Part shown: positions 3,349 through 59,957 of the stretch, piece after piece
Position numbering within the stretch: position 1 is the first letter of the stretch
How the letters are laid out: each line of letters starts with the position of its first letter
Assembly (NCBI RefSeq): GCF_900635775.1
Contig: NZ_LR134167.1
Span: 2,017,001-2,081,000, forward strand
From: Avibacterium volantium
GTDB taxonomy: Bacteria; Pseudomonadota; Gammaproteobacteria; Enterobacterales; Pasteurellaceae
DNA: 64,000 nt
Direction of reading: 5' to 3'
Notes under the pieces: generated by a model
Told to the model about the DNA's origin: nothing
Databases searched by the model: none
Seen by the model: only the letters and a program-made list of their open reading frames with translations
Translations under genes and position numbers: made by a program

Positions 3349-3377
3349 AATTTTTCAACAAATAATTGCGCAAAAGT

Positions 3378-5587: not shown

Positions 5588-6851
5588 ATGGATAATTTGC
5601 AATCAATTAAACAACAGCTGATCGAGAGAATTTCCCCTGCGCTGCCTAAGCGACAAGGGATCGCTTGCGTGCAGGCAGAAATTGAGACTGATCTCAATTT
5701 GTTAAGCTGGTTAAAAGGGCAAAAAACCTATCCGCAGTTTTACTTGAATTTCCGCGATAGCACCCAAGTTGTGGCGGCTATCGGACAAGTACGCGACTTT
5801 TCGCAATTAAATCAGGCACAAGCCTTTATGCAACAAAGCGGTTATCCTTTAGTGGGCGGTGTGCAATTTTATGGTGAAAGCCAATTTGTCTTGCCGCGTC
5901 TGTATTTGCAACAGCAAGAAAATAAGTTAAACATTCAGTTATTTATCGATCAAACAAAAGATATTGAGCAAGAGCGCCAAGCCTGTTTAAACGCATTAAA
6001 AACCTTTGAAAAAAGCACCGCACTTTGCCCCATTCAACAATCCATTCATTTTGGGAAAAAACGGGCAGAACAACGCGAATGGTGCGAATGGGTGGAAAAA
6101 GGTTTACAGCACATTAAACAAGGCGTGCTGAATAAGATTGTGTTGGCCAATGAAACCCTTTTCCAATCAGAAGGCAAACTGAACGCCTATGATTTTTTGG
6201 GCGAAAGTGAACGCTATAATTTCGGCTGCTATCATTTTCTTTTTGCCGAAACGGAAGAATGTATTTTTATTGGCTCCAGCCCTGAACGCCTGTATCAACG
6301 GCAAGGTTCACAGCTGCAAACTGAAGCCTTAGCTGGCACAGCGTTAGTGGGTGAAAATGCACAAGAAACCGAACAACAAGCGCAATGGTTGTTGCAAGAT
6401 GAGAAGAATATTTATAGTTGTTGATGACATTAAACAACATCTTGCTCCTTATAGCCAACACATTACGGTGTCCCCTTTGGGTTTAAAAACCTTGCGTCAG
6501 GTACAGCATTTAAGACGCCAAATTTCAGCGCAAACTTCCCCTGGATATGGCGATGATATTTTCTTAAACGCCATTCACCCCACTGCAGCCGTGGCAGGCT
6601 TAGGACGCAACGAGGCGCTCGCCTTTTTACGCCAAACGGAAACCTTTGATCGCCGTTGGTATGCAGGGACATTAGGCGTAATGCAAAAAGAATGGGCTGA
6701 ATTTTGCGTTGCCATTCGCTCTGCATTCCTTGAGCAAGAACAAATTCGCGTTTTTGCCGGTGCAGGGATTGTTGAAGGCTCTATTCCCTTGTTAGAATGG
6801 CAAGAAATTGAGCGTAAAGCCTTAGGATTAATTTCTTTATTACAAGAATAA
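5588..6851 (+). pseudogene. menF: Isochorismate synthase MenF, frameshifted
   Basis: MenF converts chorismate to isochorismate, the entry step of menaquinone synthesis. The first 278 codons read as MenF up to DEKNIY, then run into SC and a TGA at 6422-6424. MenF resumes in another frame with VVDDIKQHL and continues to the stop at 6851. In this enzyme family (EntC, MenF, PabB, TrpE) the segment after the lysine reads roughly E-H-x-L before the VV, and here only one base lies between TAT and GTT. About 11 bases therefore seem to be missing, including the codon for a conserved Glu that is a metal ligand in related enzymes. The rest, including the C-terminal GAGIVEGS motif, is intact. It is followed directly by menD and menH. 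An assembly error is possible but an 11-base loss is less typical of one. Confidence 0.85.
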
Positions 6852-20346: not shown

Positions 20347-20508
20347 TAAATTTTATCGCGTCGCTTTATTTTCACTCTTTATGTAAACCTGATTTTGTGG
20401 AACAGCTCACAAAATCGTCTTTTTTTGTTAGAAATCCCCATTCAAATATGCCAGAATGATTCTAACCTAATCAACGAGCGTTCTTCCTCAGAATGTAAGG
20501 AGGTCAAA

Positions 20509-20977
20509 ATGAAAAAATTAGGTTTATTGCTTAGCGTAATGCTACTTGCCGCTTGTTCTACTACGCCTACTTCACCCCCCCCCAGAAGTGAAACTCGTTC
20601 TGCCAACCTTAACCAAAGCAGGCTATTTCAAATTAGCGCCGAATGCAGAATATTATGTGGATACCCAATCGGTTTGGGTGGATAACGAAGACAAGCACTT
20701 AATTCATTTTGATGTGGTGATTAATTCGGATAAAGGCTTATTCGTGTATAAAGAGCGCCCAGAACTTTACGCGCGCTCCGTGCGTCAATACAAAATTCTC
20801 AACTGTAATACTTATCGTCTTACCCAAGTTAGAACGGATTACTACAGTGAATTTTGGGGCGATGGTATCCGCGCCGCCTTACGCAAACAACAACGACACA
20901 CGGTAAAATTGCAAAAAAATTCCACCCTTTATGTGTTAGGGCAAGTGATGTGCGCCAATATGTATCGAAAATGGTAA
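20509..20977 (+). pseudogene. Surface lipoprotein of the protein E (adhesin) family, out of frame at a poly-C tract
   Basis: The product resembles Haemophilus surface protein E, a lipoprotein adhesin that binds vitronectin and laminin. After a near-perfect ribosome site AAGGAGGT (20497-20504) the ATG at 20509 opens a lipoprotein signal ending in LAAC (cysteine 16). After TTPTSPPP the frame is lost and the peptide ends at 20685. The protein E core, from EVKLV through YYVDTQSVWVD, ARSVRQYKILNC and QVRTDYY to the stop at 20977, lies in another frame. The shift falls in a run of nine C (20575-20583). With eight C the gene would encode 155 aa, close to the roughly 160 aa of protein E. The tract may be a phase-variation switch in its OFF state, a fixed mutation, or a sequencing error. 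Confidence 0.85.
20575..20583. repeat. Poly-C(9) tract in the protein E-like gene
   Basis: Nine consecutive C lie ten codons or fewer after the lipobox cysteine codon. Nine puts the rest of the gene out of frame; eight or eleven would restore it; ten would stop within a few codons. Simple repeats of this length are the usual switch of phase-variable surface genes in this family. Confidence 0.9.
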
Positions 20978-27233: not shown

Positions 27234-27914
27234 AACAACCTCAAAAATTTAATTTAACTAAAAAAATTATAGCAATCTCCAGATAGAAAGAATAAATTAA
27301 AGTCCAAAAATTTAATCTACATCACATTTTTCTTGCTTACCGCATTAATTTCTTTAACAATCTTTGAACAAATTTCTCATTCTGCTATCTAAACAACACG
27401 ATTAACTATTTTCTTTTCTATCAACTCATTACTCGGAAATATTATGAATTGGTCAGACGAATTACTAAGTTCATTTTTATGGATAATCCAAAGCCTCGTG
27501 ATTACGAGCATTGTCTTCTCCCTTATCTTAGCGCTTTTAGTCAAAACAACTCGCTGGGCGCATCAATTTTGGCTTTTAGCTAAAAATTACCTTTCCCCCA
27601 AACAGAGCCTCAAACCACTCTGCTATTTTTGGGTGATCATCTTCTTTAATCTAGTTGCTGTGCGGTTAGATATTCTATTTTCTAATTGGTATAACGCAAT
27701 GTACAGCGCATTACAGGAAATGAATGTCAGCGTATTCTGGCAACAAATGGTCGTATTTTCCTTGCTTGCCACTGTTCACGTGTTGAATGTGCTGTTTACC
27801 TACTACATTTCGCAACGCTTCAAAATTCAATGGCGAACTTGGCTCAATGGGCATTATGTAGAAAAATGGACAGCCAACCTGATCTGCCCCCAAAAAGTTA
27901 GACTATATTCTAAT

Positions 27915-28709
27915 TTAATTCAAGGACTGAGTTCTGTATTCCACAGGGCTTAGTCCTTTGAGCTTCACTTGAATACGCTCATTGTTGTAGTAATGAATGT
28001 ACTCGTGAATCACTTTTTCAAGCTGTTCAAAGGTTTCAAACCGCTTGCCAAAGTAACATTCCGTCTTCAATCGCCCGAAAAAGCTTTCCATCGCACCATT
28101 ATCAAGGCAATTACCTTTTCTCGACATACTTTGCTTAATACCGTGTTTTTTCAATATCTCCTGATAACCCATCATTTGATACTGCCATCCTTGGTCGGAA
28201 TGCAGTATCGGTTTTTCCCCCGCTAATCGGTTCACCGCCTGGGTCAACATTCTGGTTATCTGCTCAAAATTCGGACTTCTCGCCACATCATAAGCAATAA
28301 TTTCGTTATTAAACAAGTCTTTAATCGGTGATAAATACACTTTGCCTTCCGCACATTTGAACTCGGTGATATCCGTTACCCACTTCTCATTCGGCATCGT
28401 TGCCGTAAAATCCCGTTGCAACAGATTATCGGCAATTTGTCCCACTTTGCCTTGGTAAGAACGATATTTTTTCTGCTTACTTTTTCCTTTTAACCCCAAA
28501 CGTTGCATTATCGCTTGCACCCTTTTGTGGTTGATAATCAAGTATTTCCTTAATTCCAAGGTAATTCGACGATAACCATAATTTTCGTCATTTTTGCGAT
28601 AAATTTCCTCTATTTTCTGTGAAATCGCTACATTTTTATCCGACTTTGGCTTGAGATGATAAAAGAACGAACTGCGTGCCAATCCGATTAGCCTGAGTAA
28701 CAATTCCAA
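27915..28709 (-). CDS. IS3-family transposase OrfB (copy 1)
   Basis: The catalytic part of the transposase, with an integrase-fold DDE core: D in WVTDITEF, D in LHSDQGWQY, and E in [13 protein letters not shown] helical HTH_21-like segment precedes it ([15 protein letters not shown]). The ORF has only a TTG as possible start and its frame is open back into the end of orfA ([16 protein letters not shown]), one base out of step. It is therefore probably made as an OrfAB fusion by programmed -1 frameshifting near the A-rich stretch at about 28748-28765, as in other IS3 members. Confidence 0.93.
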
Positions 28710-28732
28710 CGGGAAACGCGAGCGTAAGGCAT

Positions 28733-29242
28733 TTACGATGACGGCTTTTTCTGCATTTTTTGTTGGTTGAGTTCCTGCAACTTTTTTAGCATTGCATTCT
28801 CCGCTTCTAATTCCAAAATTCGGTAACGCAAGCGTTCTTCTTCTGTTTTGGGCGTTGGTGGCATTTTAGGTGAGTTGAGTTTCATACTTGGACGACCTTT
28901 AGGTTTGAGTAATAACCCATCTATACCTTGTTTTTCAAAGCGTTGCAACCATTGACTAATTATCCCTGAACTGGGGATATCAAAGCGAAAGCAGGCGGCT
29001 TCAGCGGAGCACTGGCCTTTTTTGATAGCTTGAATAACCTTTAATTTAAACTCAACAGAATAATATCGTTTTTTACCTAACACAGCTAATCCATTGATTC
29101 CATTATGATTAAATTTCGCAATCCAACGTGCTAACGTGCTTTGGGGAAGCTGAAAATACTGGCGAGTAAGCGAACGGTTTTTTCCATTTTGATGATAAAA
29201 GTCGAGCACTTGTTGTTTGAAACGTTGAGTATATTTAGTCAT
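28733..29242 (-). CDS. IS3-family OrfA (copy 1)
   Basis: A 169-aa DNA-binding protein with two helix-turn-helix segments (around [18 protein letters not shown] and [21 protein letters not shown]) and a C-terminal leucine-zipper-like coiled coil ([17 protein letters not shown]). This is the IS150-type OrfA. The ATG at 29242 directly follows a T-run; a weak AAGGTG ribosome site lies inside the hairpin of the IS end. The stop is 24 bp upstream of the first possible OrfB start. Confidence 0.93.
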
Positions 29243-29247
29243 AAAAA

Positions 29248-29297
29248 ATCTGCACCTTAATCAGTTGGTTGTTTAGTCCAACTTTTGGGGTGCAGAT
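29248..29297 (-). promoter_or_regulatory. Hairpin at the IS transposase end (copy 1)
   Basis: ATCTGCACC (29248-29256) and GGTGCAGAT (29289-29297) form a perfect 9-bp stem over a 32-nt loop, ending in six T and the orfA ATG on the minus strand. Transcripts entering from outside would fold it, hiding the AAGGTG ribosome site or ending at the T-run. The second copy has the same arrangement. Confidence 0.6.
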
Positions 29298-30672
29298 CAA
29301 CCAAGCCTATTATAAAACCCTGTATAGCCTCAATCAGCTAGACAATCCCGATCAACGTATCCAGCAAGATATTGAATCTTACATCAACAGCTCGCTCAGT
29401 TTTGCTACGGGCGTGATTTCCTCCACGGTTTCACTCATCGCATTCACCGCGATTTTGTGGAACTTATCAGGGCCAATGGAAATCGCGGGCTATGAAATCC
29501 CGCATATGATGGTATTTTTAGTGTTTATTTATGTGCTTATTACCAGTGTGATTGCCTTTAGAATTGGACGACCATTAATTAAACTCAACTTCGCTAATGA
29601 AAGGCTCAACGCAAATTATCGTTATTCCCTAATTCGCCTAAAAGAATATGCAGAAAGCATTGCCTTCTACCGTGGTGAAAAAATGGAACAACACTTATTG
29701 TTCAAACAATTCAATAAAATTATTGGAAACATCTGGCAACTGGTTTACCGCACCCTGAAATTATCTGGCTTTAACTTAACTGTTTCACAGATCTCCGTTA
29801 TCTTCCCATTTCTTATTCAAGCGGGGCGCTACTTCAGTGAACAAATCAAACTCGGTGATTTAATGCAAACCGCCCAAGCCTTTGGCAAAGTGCAAGAATC
29901 TCTTTCTTTTTATCGCAATTCTTATGATGATTTCGCGGCTTACCGTGCTGTGCTTGATCGTTTAACAGGCTTTCATAGTGCGATTAATGCGGCTAATCAA
30001 CCATCTAAAACCCAACTTCAAGATAGCCAAGGCGAAGTGGCATTCCAAAATCTCACCATAAAACGCCCTGATGGAAAAAGCCTGATTGAAAACTTAAACC
30101 TCACCTTTCCCCTAGGCACAAGGGTACTAATTCAAGGGCAATCTGGGGTTGGAAAAACCACGCTATTACGCACCGCAGCAGGGCTTTGGCAATATTCCGA
30201 AGGCACCGTAATCTGCCCACAACACAGCGCCCTATTCCTTTCGCAAAAACCTTATTTGCCACAAGGTCGCTTAATTGATGCCCTTTATTATCCTGCAATG
30301 GCAAGTGAAGATTGCGATCTCGCTGCAATCCAACAAATTATGCAACAAGTTAATTTAGGACATTTAACCGATAAGCTCGAGCAAGAACAAGATTGGACGC
30401 GCGTGCTTTCTCTCGGCGAACAACAGCGCCTTGCCTTTGCCCGCTTATTACTACACAAGCCACAGGTGGCATTTCTTGACGAAGCAACAGCAAGTATGGA
30501 CGAAGGACTGGAAGACGCAATGTATCAGTTATTAAAAAGCGCATTGCCAAATACCACCATAATCAGCGTAGGGCATCGCTCTACCTTGCTTAAGCATCAC
30601 AGATTGCATTTGCAAATTCAGGCAGATAAAAGCTGGAAATTAATCCAACCGATGGAAAATTAGGGTAAAGAA

Positions 30673-30724: not shown

Positions 30725-31501
30725 TTATTGAATACTAAACCGAATTGGCACGGTCATTGAAGAAGAAAGCCCTGCAGGTCTTGCGCCGATAGATTTTGTT
30801 CGGCTTACAGCCTCTAAGGCGGCTTTATCTAAATCATTATTACCCGAGGATTTTGCGAGTTGAATATTACTCAACGAACCATCAGCGGCAATATTAAAAC
30901 TCACTGTCGCTATCCCTTGTTTACGCATCATTTTAGCCCGTTGTGGGTAGCGTCTATGGCGTTCTATTTCTCGGCGCAATGCGCCCATATAGGCATTCTT
31001 TACATCAGAGCCAGCACTTTTACTAACAAGGTTTGGATTGTTCACCGTTGCCTTGCCTAAGCTGGTTGCTGTCGCTGTGATTTTCGCTTCAGAATTCACA
31101 TTGCGATCCCCTTTTTCAAGCGCCTTATTCGCCAAAGGTTTCTCTTTGAGTTGAGGTTTCTCTTTTTTCGTTTTTTCTTTCTTTTTCTCTTTCGGCTTTT
31201 CTTTCTTAATTTCTTTTGGCTTTTCTGGTTTTGGTGGTTCAGGTTTTACAATGGGATCGGGCACAATTTCTTTTGCCACTGGCTCTGGCTCAGGTTCTGC
31301 AACAGGTTCTGGCGCAGGTTCAGGTTCTTCAACGGTCATTCCCATTAGCATTTCCATTGAAATACTGTTATCGATCACGTCTGCTTGATAGCCATTGGCA
31401 CTGCTGTCGGCTTTTACAGCATAGACAATCGCTCCAATCACGGTGGCGTGAAATAGGAGAGAAAAGAAGAAGCCAAACCAAGAACGATGTTTATTTGCCA
31501 T
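30725..31501 (-). CDS. tonB: Energy transducer TonB
   Basis: TonB spans the periplasm and transmits energy from ExbB-ExbD to outer-membrane receptors. The 258-aa protein has an N-terminal membrane anchor (about residues 11-30, with the conserved SLLFH motif), a long Pro-Glu/Pro-Lys stretch at about 55-125, and a C-terminal domain with the RYPQRA motif that meets the receptor TonB box. It is the last gene of exbB-exbD-tonB, and its ATG directly follows the exbD stop. Iron control is likely from the Fur-like box ahead of exbB. Confidence 0.95.
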   Translation of the reverse strand: MANKHRSWFGFFFSLLFHATVIGAIVYAVKADSSANGYQADVIDNSISMEMLMGMTVEEPEPAPEPVAEPEPEPVAKEIVPDPIVKPEPPKPEKPKEIKKEKPKEKKKEKTKKEKPQLKEKPLANKALEKGDRNVNSEAKITATATSLGKATVNNPNLVSKSAGSDVKNAYMGALRREIERHRRYPQRAKMMRKQGIATVSFNIAADGSLSNIQLAKSSGNNDLDKAALEAVSRTKSIGARPAGLSSSMTVPIRFSIQ

Positions 31502-31888
31502 TTATTTGCCTTTTTCTTTCATTGTGACAATGGCAACATTTTTGATGTTATTTTTCGCCATTAAATCTGTCAGGCTAACAAAATCTTGGAATGTGGCTTT
31601 AGCGTCCACTTTCAGGGTTACTTTTTGATCTTTCGCCCAGCTTGCCACTTCTTTTTCCATTTGCGCTAAATCTGTCGGCTTATCGTTAAAAAAGATTTCA
31701 CCTGTTTCCGTAACGGTTAATAATTTGGCTAAATCGTCCGATTTAAACGCTACAGTGCTGCTGGCTTTTGGCACGTTCACTTGAATTTTGCCTTGCGAAA
31801 TAAAAGACGCAGTGATTAAGACAATCGCCAGCAACACTAACATAATGTCAATGAAAGGGATAATATTGATTTCATCAAACTTTTTCAC
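31502..31888 (-). CDS. exbD: Biopolymer transport protein ExbD
   Basis: ExbD forms the proton channel with ExbB and drives TonB. The 128-aa protein has one N-terminal membrane helix with the essential aspartate in [11 protein letters not shown], and a periplasmic domain with the TolR-like fold. It starts 1 bp after exbB and abuts tonB, so the three genes are one transcription unit in the order usual for Pasteurellaceae. Confidence 0.96.
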
Positions 31889-31889
31889 A

Positions 31890-32345
31890 TTATGCCCCTA
31901 GATTTTTTTGTCCGTTTAAGGCTTTCCATTTTAGGCGATTGACTTCCACTTTGCGTTGCAAGCCGTTGTAAAACACCATTGATGGAATGGCGACTAAAAT
32001 CCCTACTGCCGTGGCTTTCAGAGCAAGGGAAAGGTTAAGCATAATGGCAGCAGCATCAATGTCCCCACCTGAATTTCCTAATTCATAGAAAGTTAATAAA
32101 ATCCCGATAACTGTACCCAATAAACCCACATAAGGGGCATTTGAGCCAATGGTGGAAATAATAGTTAGGTTACGGTTGAGATCAATGTCTAACTCGTAGA
32201 TATTGGTGTAGTGCGAAACATTCACACGGCTTAAAAAGATAAAGCGTTCAATCACGAACCATACCATAATAAAGCTCATTAAACCGAGTAAACCTAAAAT
32301 AATGTAATCAACATAATGTTGTAAAAATGCGAATAATTGCGGCAT
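31890..32345 (-). CDS. exbB: Biopolymer transport protein ExbB
   Basis: ExbB is the three-helix scaffold of the ExbB-ExbD motor. The 151-aa product has helices at about residues 13-33, 66-88 and 105-125, with the [10 protein letters not shown] and [16 protein letters not shown] motifs. It is short as usual for this family. It is the first gene of exbBD-tonB. A Fur-like box lies about 60 bp upstream, and the frameshifted TonB-dependent receptor gene lies just beyond it on the same strand. Confidence 0.96.
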
Positions 32346-32403
32346 TGAGAAATCCTTAACGCTGACTTCAAATAAAACGAGGCAAATTGCCCTTAATTGT
32401 TAT

Positions 32404-32418
32404 TGAGAATGAATTTCA
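32404..32418. promoter_or_regulatory. Fur-like box ahead of exbB
   Basis: TGAGAATGAATTTCA matches the 7-1-7 Fur consensus TGATAATnATTATCA at 11 of 14 informative positions. It lies 60 bp before the exbB start, in the gap after the receptor gene. Iron control of exbBD-tonB is the inferred role. Confidence 0.55.
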
Positions 32419-32474
32419 ATTAGGTTGCAAATTGTAGCAAATTAAAAATTTGCGGTCAAAGCACAAACAAAAAA

Positions 32475-32510: not shown

Positions 32511-34552
32511 TTAGAATGTGTAACTCACATTCATTCGGAAATCACGCCCTGCGCCGGTTAGGCTGTTTACCCCTGCGCGTTGGCTGTGGCTTTTGTAGTT
32601 CTTGTTGAACACGTTATCCACCGCAACATTAATGGTGAGATTTTCGTTTGCTTCCCAACTTGCGTAAAGATCATTGACGCCGTACCCCGGTTGTTTCACG
32701 CTGTCGCCTGAACCAGAACCACGGCTTGGTGAGCCTGTTTCACCTTCTACAAAACGTCCTTTCCAGCCAATAATTAAGTTTGGCTCAGCAAATTTGTAGG
32801 AAACTTCAGTTTTCCAAGTACGCCCTGTTGCCACAGCAAACACGGTGTTATCCGCCACTGCGCCATAAACTTCTGGCTTGCTTTCAGCCACGCCAGCACG
32901 CAAGGTTAGCCCTGAATATTTGTAAGCTGCACCTAATTCATAACCCTGGTTACGCAATAATGCGCCGTTATAAATCACGTTATCTTTCAAGGACATTGCC
33001 TCTTTCACTTTTTGCCAGAAATAACTTCCGTTGAGAGAAAGGCTGTCGTTGAAATCATAGTTAAAGCCAATTTCCGCATTGCGAGCTTGCTCAGCACGGA
33101 TATGGCTATCTACGCTAATTCTACCCGATCCCGCAATCGCTACCTCATACAAACGAGGGCTACGACTTGCATAGTTTAAGCTGGTATTCAGGCTTAAATT
33201 ATCAGAAACTTGCCAAATTAAGCCCGCACTTGGGTTGAAATGCCCGTGGCTGGCTTTTTTGCTTTAAATTCAAAGTAATCGTAACGGGCTCCCGTAGTTA
33301 GTGTAACGGAACCAATTCCCCAAATACCCTCTACATAAAAGCCTAAATCGTCTTTACGCTGATTATGAGCCCCCACTGCCAGTTGGTTAGGTTTTCCCAC
33401 TTGTTTACGATAATTTACCCCATATTTCACAAGGTGATGCTCGCCAATGGCACTATCTAAATTTAAATTTGCTCCCGTGGTGAGAATTTGGGTTTCACTC
33501 GCTGGTTCTTTACGCACACGCTTTGTGTGATATACATTGGCATTCGCCTCTGTGATAAACCCCATATTTTTGCCTGTCCACTCTAAATTGGTGGTATCTT
33601 GCGTGGTGGTGCGGTAACGTGGATTGTTGTTATCTTCATTCACCACGAAGTTTCCATTATTGTCTAAAAGATAATAGCTATCTTGCCCACGGCGATCCTT
33701 ACCAGCATAAACTGAGCTTAAAGCATATCCTTTTGCCCGTTGTTCCGCTGAGAGTTTTGCTCCCGATACATAGGAATTACTAAAATCAAATTCTTCACGC
33801 AAAGCACGCACACCATAATAACGCTCTTGACGGTGGCTGAATACCACCCGCTGATTTTCGCTAATATCCCAACCAAACTTTGCTAATAATCCCCGTTCGC
33901 CTAAGGCACTATTTTGTACGGTATCTGAACCATTGAGATTTTGATACCCTTTACCACCTTTATAATTTTCTTTATGGTTCCAGTTGCCAGAAATCAAGGC
34001 ATCAAATGCCGCAACCTTGCCATAAACACTTGCGCCTTGCGTATAGCCTTTATTACTGCGTACGCCACCAGTGAGCTTAAAGCCAAAATTTTGCCCCTCT
34101 CTCAATAAATCCTGCGCATCAACAGTGGTGGCGATGATCGAACCACTGGTCGCCCCAATCCCCGCACTGGCTGAGCCAGCCCCTTTTTGCACGTCAATAC
34201 GTTTGATTAACGCAGGATCAAGCAAGAAACGCCCTTCGTGATGGAAAGCTTGGGTGTCGGAATAAGTATTGTCCACTTTGAAATCAATTTGATCTTGCCC
34301 CATTCCACGAATGGCTACCCATTGTGATGTGCCGCCATTTCCGCCACCGAAATTGATGGCTGGCTCATCAAATAATAAACCACGCAAATCCGTTTCAGTG
34401 CTACGTTCCATTTGTTTTAGGGTAACAACATTGGTTTTGCTTTTCGCCCCTGTATTTTCCGTGATGACATCAATCACACCAAGGCTTTCCGCTTGTACCG
34501 CTGTAGCAACAAGCGTAGCGAGAGGTAAAAGAACAAATTTTGCTTTTTTCAT
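32511..34552 (-). pseudogene. TonB-dependent outer-membrane receptor, probably heme/hemoglobin type, frameshifted
   Basis: The first 444 codons give a signal peptide (ending AVQA), the plug domain (IRGMGQDQIDFKVD, then KGAGSASAGIGATSGSI) and the first half of the barrel. The frame is lost at a run of six A on the coding strand (33255-33260 on the given strand). The barrel resumes one frame away with ASHGHFNPSAGLIWQV and YASRSPRLYEVA, and ends at 32511 with the barrel signature VSYTF. With one more A the gene would encode 680 aa, normal for a receptor. The position upstream of exbBD-tonB and two Fur-like boxes indicate iron or heme uptake; from memory it resembles H. influenzae HI_0113. A Fur-like box precedes it. 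Sequencing error is an alternative. Confidence 0.85.
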
Positions 34553-56753: not shown

Positions 56754-56795
56754 ATTTTTCTGATCTGCCCCCAAAAAGTTAGACTATATTCTAAT

Positions 56796-57590
56796 TTAAT
56801 TCAAGGACTGAGTTCTGTATTCCACAGGGCTTAGTCCTTTGAGCTTCACTTGAATACGCTCATTGTTGTAGTAATGAATGTACTCGTGAATCACTTTTTC
56901 AAGCTGTTCAAAGGTTTCAAACCGCTTGCCAAAGTAACATTCCGTCTTCAATCGCCCGAAAAAGCTTTCCATCGCACCATTATCAAGGCAATTGCCTTTT
57001 CTCGACATACTTTGCTTAATACCGTATTTTTTCAATATCTCCCGATAACTCATCATTTGATACTGCCATCCTTGGTCGGAATGCAGTATCGGTTTTTCCC
57101 CCGCTAATCGGTTCACCGCCTGGGTCAACATTCTGGTTATCTGCTCAAAATTCGGACTTCTCGCCACATTATAAGCAATAATTTCGTTATTAAACAAGTC
57201 TTTAATCGGCGATAAATACACTTTGCCTTCCGCACATTTGAACTCGGTGATATCCGTTACCCACTTCTCATTCGGCATCGTTGCCGTAAAATCCCGTTGC
57301 AACAGATTATCGGCAATTTGTCCCACTTTGCCTTGGTAAGAACGATATTTTTTCTGCTTACTTTTTCCTTTTAACCCCAAACGTTGCATTATCGCTTGCA
57401 CCCTTTTGTGGTTGATAATCAAGTATTTCCTTAATTCCAAGGTAATTCGACGATAACCATAATTTTCGTCATTTTTGCGATAAATTTCCTCTATTTTCTG
57501 TGAAATCGCTACATTTTTATCCGACTTTGGCTTGAGATGATAAAAGAACGAACTGCGTGCCAATCCGATTAGCCTGAGTAACAATTCCAA
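56796..57590 (-). CDS. IS3-family transposase OrfB (copy 2)
   Basis: Nearly identical to OrfB of copy 1, with the same DDE residues (TDITEF, SDQGWQ, and E in GAMESFF). It differs at four residues: N for D in [10 protein letters not shown] for G and R for Q in MMSYREI, and Y for H in KKYGIK. Both copies look capable of coding for active enzyme. The frame is again open into the orfA end one base out of step, with only a TTG start of its own. Confidence 0.93.
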
Positions 57591-57613
57591 CGGGAAACGC
57601 GAGCGTAAGGCAT

Positions 57614-58123
57614 TTACGATGACGGCTTTTTCTGCATTTTTTGTTGGTTGAGTTCCTGCAACTTTTTTAGCATTGTATTCTCCGCTTCTAATTCCAAAAT
57701 TCGGTAACGCAAGCGTTCTTCTTCTGTTTTGGGCGTTGGTGGCATTTTAGGTGAGTTGAGTTTCATACTTGGACGACCTTTAGGTTTGAGTAATAACCCA
57801 TCTATACCTTGTTTTTCAAAGCGTTGCAACCATTGACTAATTATCCCTGAACTGGGGATATCAAAGCGAAAGCAGGCGGCTTCAGCGGAGCACTGGCCTT
57901 TTTTGATAGCTTGAATAACCTTTAATTTAAACTCAACAGAATAATATCGTTTTTTACCTAACACAGCTAATCCATTGATTCCATTATGATTAAATTTCGC
58001 AATCCAACGTGCTAACGTGCTTTGGGGAAGCTGAAAATACTGGCGAGTAAGCGAACGGTTTTTTCCATTTTGATGATAAAAGTCGAGCACTTGTTGTTTG
58101 AAACGTTGAGTATATTTAGTCAT
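57614..58123 (-). CDS. IS3-family OrfA (copy 2)
   Basis: Identical to OrfA of copy 1 except for one residue (T for A in [11 protein letters not shown] in the coiled coil). It has the same two helix-turn-helix segments and the same start directly after the T-run of the terminal hairpin. It would be translated with OrfB as a frameshift fusion. Confidence 0.93.
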
Positions 58124-58187
58124 AAAAAATCTGCACCTTAATCAATTGGTTGTTTAGTCCAACTTTTGGGGTGCAGATCATTTCAAC

Positions 58188-58223: not shown

Positions 58224-59642
58224 TTACGCATAATACATTTCAAATTCCACTGGGTGTGGGGTCATATTTAAGCGTTCCACTTCTTTGCGTTTAATCGCAA
58301 TAAAGGCATCAACAAATTCTTTGCTGAACACGCCACCTTGGGTTAAGAATTCGTAATCTTTTTCCAATGCGTTTAATGCTTCTTCCAATGATCCTGCTAC
58401 GGCTGGAATTTCTTTTAATTCTTCTGGCGGTAAATCATACAGGTTTTTATCCATGGCATCGCCTGGGTGAATTTTGTTCACAATACCATCTAAGCCTGCC
58501 ATTAATAATGCCGAGAAAGCTAAATATGGGTTTGCCATTGGATCAGGGAAACGCGCTTCAATACGAATCGCTTTCGGGCTAGTTACCGCTGGAATACGGA
58601 TTGATGCAGAGCGGTTGCTTGCTGAGTAAGCTAATAATACAGGCGCTTCAAAACCCGGTACTAAGCGTTTGTATGAGTTGGTTGAAGGGTTAGTAAAGGC
58701 ATTCAAGGCTTTAGCGTGTTTGATGATCCCGCCAATGTAGTAAAGTGCGGTTTCAGAAAGCCCTGCATATTTATCCCCTTGGAAAATATTTTTGCCGTCT
58801 TTGCTTAAGGACATATTACAGTGCATTCCTGAGCCGTTATCGCCAGTGATAGGCTTTGGCATAAAGCAGGCAGTTTTGCCGTGTTCTGCCGCCACATTTT
58901 GCACCACATATTTATAAATTTGCGTTTCGTCCGCTTTTAAAGTGAGCGAGTTAAATTTGGTGGCAATTTCATTTTGTCCTGCGGTGGCCACTTCGTGGTG
59001 GTGCGCTTCAATCACCAAGCCCATTTCTTCTAGCAATAAGCACATTTCTGAACGAATATCGTGCGCGGTATCATTTGGTGCAACCGCACAGTAACCGCCT
59101 TTGGTAAGTGGACGATAACCATTGTTGCCGCCTTCATAAATTTTGTTGGTATTCCACGCGCCTTCAATATCATCGACCACATAAGAATTGCCATTCATTG
59201 CCGAGCCAAAACGAACATCATCAAATAAGAAAAACTCAGGTTCTGGGCCGAAAAACACATCGTCTGCAATGCCTGTTGAGCGCATATAATTTTCTGCTCG
59301 GATCGCAATAGAACGCGGATCGCGATCATAGCTTTGCATTGTGGTTGGTTCATAAATACTGCAACGAAGGGATAAGGTTGGGATTTGTGCGAAAGGATCT
59401 ACTACGGCGGTTTCAGCGATTGGCATTAACAACATATCTGCTTTATTAATGGCTTTCCAACCTTCCACCGATGAACCGTCAAACATTTTACCGTCTTCAA
59501 ATAAATCTTCATCAATTAGGTTAACAGGTAAGGATACGCCGTGCTCTTTTCCTTTAATATCGGTAAAGCGAAGAAGAACAAACTTAATGTCATTTTCTTC
59601 GATTAACTTAAACACATTGGCAACGGCCGCTTCATTTGACAT
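58224..59642 (-). CDS. glnA: Glutamine synthetase type I
   Basis: GlnA makes glutamine from glutamate, ammonia and ATP. The 472-aa product from the ATG at 59642 (ribosome site GAGGA) has the family motifs DGSSVEGW, the [12 protein letters not shown] loop, NRSASIRIP and the adenylylation-site tyrosine in [10 protein letters not shown], so activity control by GlnE is likely. No NtrC-type or sigma-54 site is evident upstream. The original terminator after it is broken by IS copy 2, so transcripts may run on into the IS on the same strand. Confidence 0.96.
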
Positions 59643-59957
59643 AGTGATAATCCTCATAAATATGATTGCTAGAGTTGAGATGCTGTGTGCTTAATGCACG
59701 CTGGCTAAAATATCACATCACCTGCAAAATTCAAGGGGCGAGCGTGATTTTAATTTCACTCAAGTGCGGTAAAAAAATCAGGAATTTTTACACCGCACTT
59801 TACGAAATTCTCTCCAAAAGATAGAAATCCACTTATTTCCAATTATTCATAGCTCAACGTGGCAAAACGTTGTATAATCTGCAACCTTTTCGTGCAATCT
59901 TGCTAACAACATTGCACATTATTCAAACATCATTATTGATAACAAAAGACTTTTCAA
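59643..59957. other. Intergenic region between divergent glnA and typA
   Basis: No gene is seen in these 315 bp. An inverted pair of uptake sequences, AAGTGCGGT (59762-59770) and ACCGCACTT (59792-59800), could form a hairpin on either strand, unusual in that it lies between two start sites instead of two ends. Promoters must lie here, but I cannot place them with confidence. Confidence 0.6.

Follow-up and report, generated by a model that had tools for sequence, protein, structure and literature searches.

Does a run of nine C inside a surface-lipoprotein gene of Avibacterium volantium work as a switch, or does it mark a gene that has recently broken? The gene lies in a 64,000-nucleotide stretch of contig NZ_LR134167.1 (positions 2,017,001 to 2,081,000 of the 2.23-Mb, single-contig genome), here called the window, and encodes a protein E-type lipoprotein, the two otherwise intact halves of which stand in different reading frames, the frame changing at the nine-C tract (C9; Table 1). 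A sequence-only reading of this DNA had taken the arrangement for a slipped-strand phase-variation switch. The explanation favoured here, at a probability of roughly one half, is that slippage in a mutable tract, itself newly formed, recently shifted the frame of a dispensable gene, and not that the tract evolved as a switch.

The layout itself was described correctly in that reading. The ribosome site AAGGAGG ahead of the ATG and the lipoprotein signal, with its lipobox ending in the cysteine of codon 16, were read directly, and the frame breaks exactly at the nine-C run, beyond which the core is in the +1 frame. Membership of the protein E-like family is also confirmed, as the core piece alone passes the cut-off of PF16747 (Adhesin_E; 61.9 bits, cut-off 23.7) and matches the solved Haemophilus protein E (PDB 3zh7; E 3e-49), with 72 of 124 aligned residues identical. 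No NCBIfam model matched the core, the fragment 5' of the tract reached the cut-off of no family in either search, and a protein search with the 58-residue truncated reading returned one candidate and no match at E 0.001.

The relatives, compared at one genome per species and with a single genome of the source species, provide the evidence for a young tract. By the gene core the nearest named relatives are A. endocarditidis and A. gallinarum, with identities of 95.5% and 96.1%, respectively, over 3.4 kb of DNA surrounding the gene. A PF16747 profile search of seven genomes of the genus located the gene in four (the source genome, these two species and the congener G001) and did not find it in the remaining three (G002, G003 and G006), while a search with the core piece matched 17 of 61 genomes, the source genome included. 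A. gallinarum and A. endocarditidis have the same Ser-Pro-Pro-Pro linker, written in mixed proline codons with a C run of at most 5; in G001 the C run in the linker stretch is at most 3. The more distant Pasteurellaceae inspected have another linker, with the core preceded by a lipoprotein start in frame, and showed no C9. The nine-C run appears, in what could be seen, to be confined to this genome. The favoured reading is supported by the open frame and interrupted tract in all three congeners that carry the gene, together with the lack of the gene in three of the seven genus genomes.

No lesion other than the tract was seen in either half, in agreement with the earlier description of both as intact. 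The DNA of all 22 codons ahead of the tract is identical to that of A. gallinarum and A. endocarditidis, and the core is identical to both in 130 of 130 residues. Against A. gallinarum it shows four synonymous and no non-synonymous codon differences; when polarised by the outgroup G001, one of these falls on the source lineage and three on the other. The region just upstream of the gene is nearly identical to A. gallinarum as well. Further inactivating changes were not seen in the gene (130 core codons compared), and a recent break would leave none. As the core is free of amino-acid changes and the 5' part is identical in these two congeners, the gene was constrained until recently.

In the proposed course of events, the proline codons of the linker, mixed in the relatives, would have become all C in this lineage by third-position change, and the resulting all-C stretch would be prone to slipped-strand errors, one of which would have put the core out of frame. 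The strain would then probably make only the 58-residue truncated lipoprotein, and further slippage could in principle reverse the out-of-frame state. The order of these events, slippage as the cause and the absence of the full product are what we infer here. A study of the poly(A) run of Listeria inlA showed that homopolymer frameshifts can occur about 1,000 times as often as the average point mutation (PMC2831843).

Table 1. Features of the protein E-type lipoprotein gene (positions in the window).
Feature	Position	Strand	Remarks
Protein E-type lipoprotein gene	20509-20977	+	two otherwise intact halves in different frames
AAGGAGG, Shine-Dalgarno-like	20497-20503	+	5 bases upstream of ATG; read directly; same in 3/3 congeners carrying the gene
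Signal peptide, lipobox (LLAAC, Cys codon 16), linker start	20509-20574	+	ATG frame; MKK..LLAAC read directly
C9 tract	20575-20583	+	codons 23-25 (three CCC) of ATG frame; frame-change point; next base A
ATG-frame reading as it stands, truncated lipoprotein	20509-20685	+	58 codons, then stop ending at 20685
Protein E-type core (PF16747)	20585-20977	+	core 20585-20974, stop to 20977; +1 frame relative to ATG

Long C tracts are few in this genome, which contains 16 runs of C or G of at least 7 on both strands (thirteen of 7, one of 8 and two of 9). At least one C9 was present in 10 of 100 dinucleotide shuffles of the 64 kb (mean 0.13); a C9 somewhere in the window is therefore not very rare, and what is telling is its position at the junction of two intact halves. 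Of the runs of 7 or 8, 14 in all, thirteen fall within a stop-to-stop frame of at least 80 codons, which is a weak test. The second C9 (G000:C1:678628-678636; around position 1501 of locus L001) is likewise a frame break, in an Asp/Glu racemase gene (PF01177) which also lacks about 76-79 internal residues in comparison with all five relatives compared, these being of other genera, and which has no match in any of the six congeners. This gene is considered a pseudogene because of the internal deletion in addition to the C9 frame break, and was rejected as a second switch for the missing residues. Both C9 runs of the genome thus sit at frame breaks, and since one of them is accompanied by a second lesion, a C9 with a frame break in this genome need not be a switch.

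The quality of the assembly was assessed with 325 A. gallinarum frames of at least 100 codons, which were compared with 384 kb of the source genome (the window plus 320 kb). By the script's test 117 of these had no counterpart, and the 208 comparable genes were intact in 199 cases. The other nine comprise four frame splits (deletions of 11 and 10 bases, an insertion of 1.4 kb, and a gap of 762 bases close to a start), two in-frame stops and three partial matches, namely the adhesin gene, a gene of 626 residues and one located at the edge of the window. Among the 208, of which all but the 626-residue partial gene were resolved, no single-base homopolymer break other than that of the adhesin gene was seen. 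The reverse comparison took in 340 frames, of which 127 lacked a counterpart; of the 213 others, 203 were intact and 10 were not (two splits, four stops and four partial matches), two of the ten being mirror images of breaks in the source genome. Faster gene loss in this strain than in A. gallinarum was accordingly rejected (9 of 208 versus 10 of 213 not intact). Against A. gallinarum and G001 alike, four window genes are broken, one of which is the adhesin gene. The window contains 185 homopolymer runs (A/T of at least 6, G/C of at least 5); 56 of these, the C9 included, could not be matched to A. gallinarum, while 125 of the 129 matched runs are of equal length, two being longer and two shorter in the source genome; this speaks against an assembly generally faulty at homopolymers, not against a miscount at the C9 itself. 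A gapped DNA comparison, which produced many compensating pairs of insertions and deletions, was replaced by the stricter A. gallinarum comparison and protein-level checks. Glutamine synthetase (58227-59699) was rejected as a broken gene, its in-frame stop being at residue 3 of an over-extended start.

Long C or G runs are difficult for some sequencing methods, and the gene could be open in the strain with its tract length miscounted in the consensus or assembly. That both C9 runs of the assembly fall at frame breaks, and that the remainder of the adhesin gene is perfect against its congeners, would suit such an error; it is nevertheless unlikely, given the 199 intact genes with no other single-base homopolymer break seen, the equal lengths of nearly all matched runs (the C9 being among those unmatched) and the second, unrelated lesion in the gene with the other C9. 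Homopolymer contingency loci, of which Neisseria surface genes are examples, are the model for the other explanation, by which the C9 would turn the lipoprotein on and off by slipped-strand phase variation. The present gene resembles them in having a C9 in the 5' part of the frame of a surface lipoprotein, with the frame change there and no other lesion seen. PMC2651432 also lists nine-C or nine-G runs among candidate switches in strains of Haemophilus influenzae; the same paper judges the mononucleotide runs of the first four H. influenzae genomes not consistent with phase variation. Within the genus, a poly-cytosine tract is named in the review PMC13209637 as a possible means of phase variation for the pilin gene flfA of A. 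paragallinarum, a case like the present one in genus, poly-C and surface adhesin, and unlike it in that the flfA tract is in the promoter and the C9 inside the coding part. A congener offers a further parallel, as a porin-like gene (identified by eye) beside purM in G006 (L042, reverse-complement position 3362) is out of frame exactly at a run of seven G, which gives the genus another surface gene with a break in a G/C tract. Unlike the contingency loci, however, the tract here is not kept in any of the three congeners with the gene, the gene is missing in three of seven genus genomes, the few long C tracts include one in a pseudogene, and no second tract length was seen in the one genome of the species. 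True slipped-strand phase variation is therefore improbable. The classic evolved switch of the sequence-only reading is not borne out, and no sign of selection for keeping the tract as a switch is apparent in the sequences compared. Phase variation of protein E was not met in the abstract openings and passages of the literature searched.

A further candidate explanation is translational. Three CCC codons of the ATG frame, with A as the next base, make up the whole C9. A +1 slip on them would bring ribosomes into the frame of the core, and the broken gene may thus leak, some core-containing lipoprotein still being made. The genome has two tRNA-Pro genes, both UGG and none GGG, among 55 tRNA matches (ARAGORN was run on 28 of 30 loci, the two omitted lying inside another, and on 11 of 18 further stretches). 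PMC4519876 reports the E. coli UGG tRNA as shift-prone on CCC, with +1 errors of up to 1% at CCC-C next to the start codon. This figure refers to the second codon, whereas codons 23-25 are concerned here; according to the same paper, +1 shifts are suppressed by m1G37, a modification naturally present in the tRNA, and a +2 shift was the one favoured by the UGG tRNA on the sequence tested. The congeners do not keep the motif, and such a leak is thus not a conserved programmed frameshift. Predicted from the letters and tRNA genes, it is slightly less probable than a true switch. A two-layer switch, in which DNA slippage would set the frame and CCC codons read only by tRNA-Pro(UGG) would let the off state leak low-level lipoprotein, is very unlikely. 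Several points weigh against a recent slippage frameshift in a dispensable gene. The undecayed core fits a switch or a sequencing error equally well, and a single genome represents the species. Breaks being about as numerous in A. gallinarum, the strain shows no special gene decay. A. endocarditidis is a weaker witness than A. gallinarum, its draft being itself rich in frame splits (when 62 A. gallinarum frames were compared with 33 kb of it, 42 gave no match, 11 were whole and 9 split or partial). The possible poly-cytosine variation of flfA (PMC13209637) raises the prior for a real switch. The break at the C9 is judged to be of an ordinary kind, with some chance of being a switch.

The gene is flanked on either side by what we take, from their translations, to be purM and a terC-like gene. 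Nothing above chance was found in the search for a promoter (two promoter-like sites versus 2.1 expected). Between purM and the ATG (20390-20424), on the same strand as the gene, there is a terminator-like hairpin with a T run, its DNA identical in A. gallinarum; four terminator-like sites were observed in the region versus 0.8 expected, and leader control of the adhesin gene by this hairpin is conceivable. In G002, G003 and G006 the similarity to the window stops at about 20347-20354, just 5' of the gene, and other genes then follow. In G003 (L039), purM is directly followed by genes matching window positions 31156-32450 (exbB/exbD/tonB-like by eye), an arrangement that points to a rearrangement at the adhesin locus of that genome.

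Other broken genes of the window were noted in the same comparisons. A chorismate-binding enzyme gene (5588-6848) lacks 11 bases in comparison with A. gallinarum and G001 and is split by this deletion; the A. endocarditidis stretch has these bases as well. A TonB-dependent receptor gene (32514-34552) is split against A. gallinarum, by a deletion of 10 bases, and against G001 too. Two 1.4-kb elements (27879-29299 and 56760-58180) are 99.4% identical; the former disrupts a gene for an SbmA-like ABC transporter, which A. gallinarum has whole.

Vitronectin and laminin binding had been assumed for this protein in the sequence-only reading. According to a review, Lys85 and Arg86 are the most important residues for vitronectin binding by the Haemophilus protein (PMC11278874); another paper places the binding region at residues 84-108 (PMC4647820). 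At the aligned place, whose position was deduced from the one Lys-Arg pair which that stretch contains, Glu-Leu is found here and in three Avibacterium relatives, and the key vitronectin pair is thus absent. PF16747 is not defined by this pair, which belongs to the function of the Haemophilus protein. The present protein accordingly shares with H. influenzae protein E a lipoprotein signal and the same core family, and differs from it in the broken frame and in the Glu-Leu that replaces Lys85/Arg86. As judged from these residues, vitronectin binding should not be assumed for it.

For the family, the locus is a caution that vitronectin binding cannot be read into every Adhesin_E protein. For the strain, it may illustrate how a gene can become fragile through a synonymous codon change, the proline codons having turned into a homopolymer and the frame having been lost, presumably soon after. 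If the tract length were variable, this would be the first protein E-type lipoprotein under phase variation known to us, and a coding poly-C locus would be added to a genus for which only a promoter poly-C tract was met in the literature.
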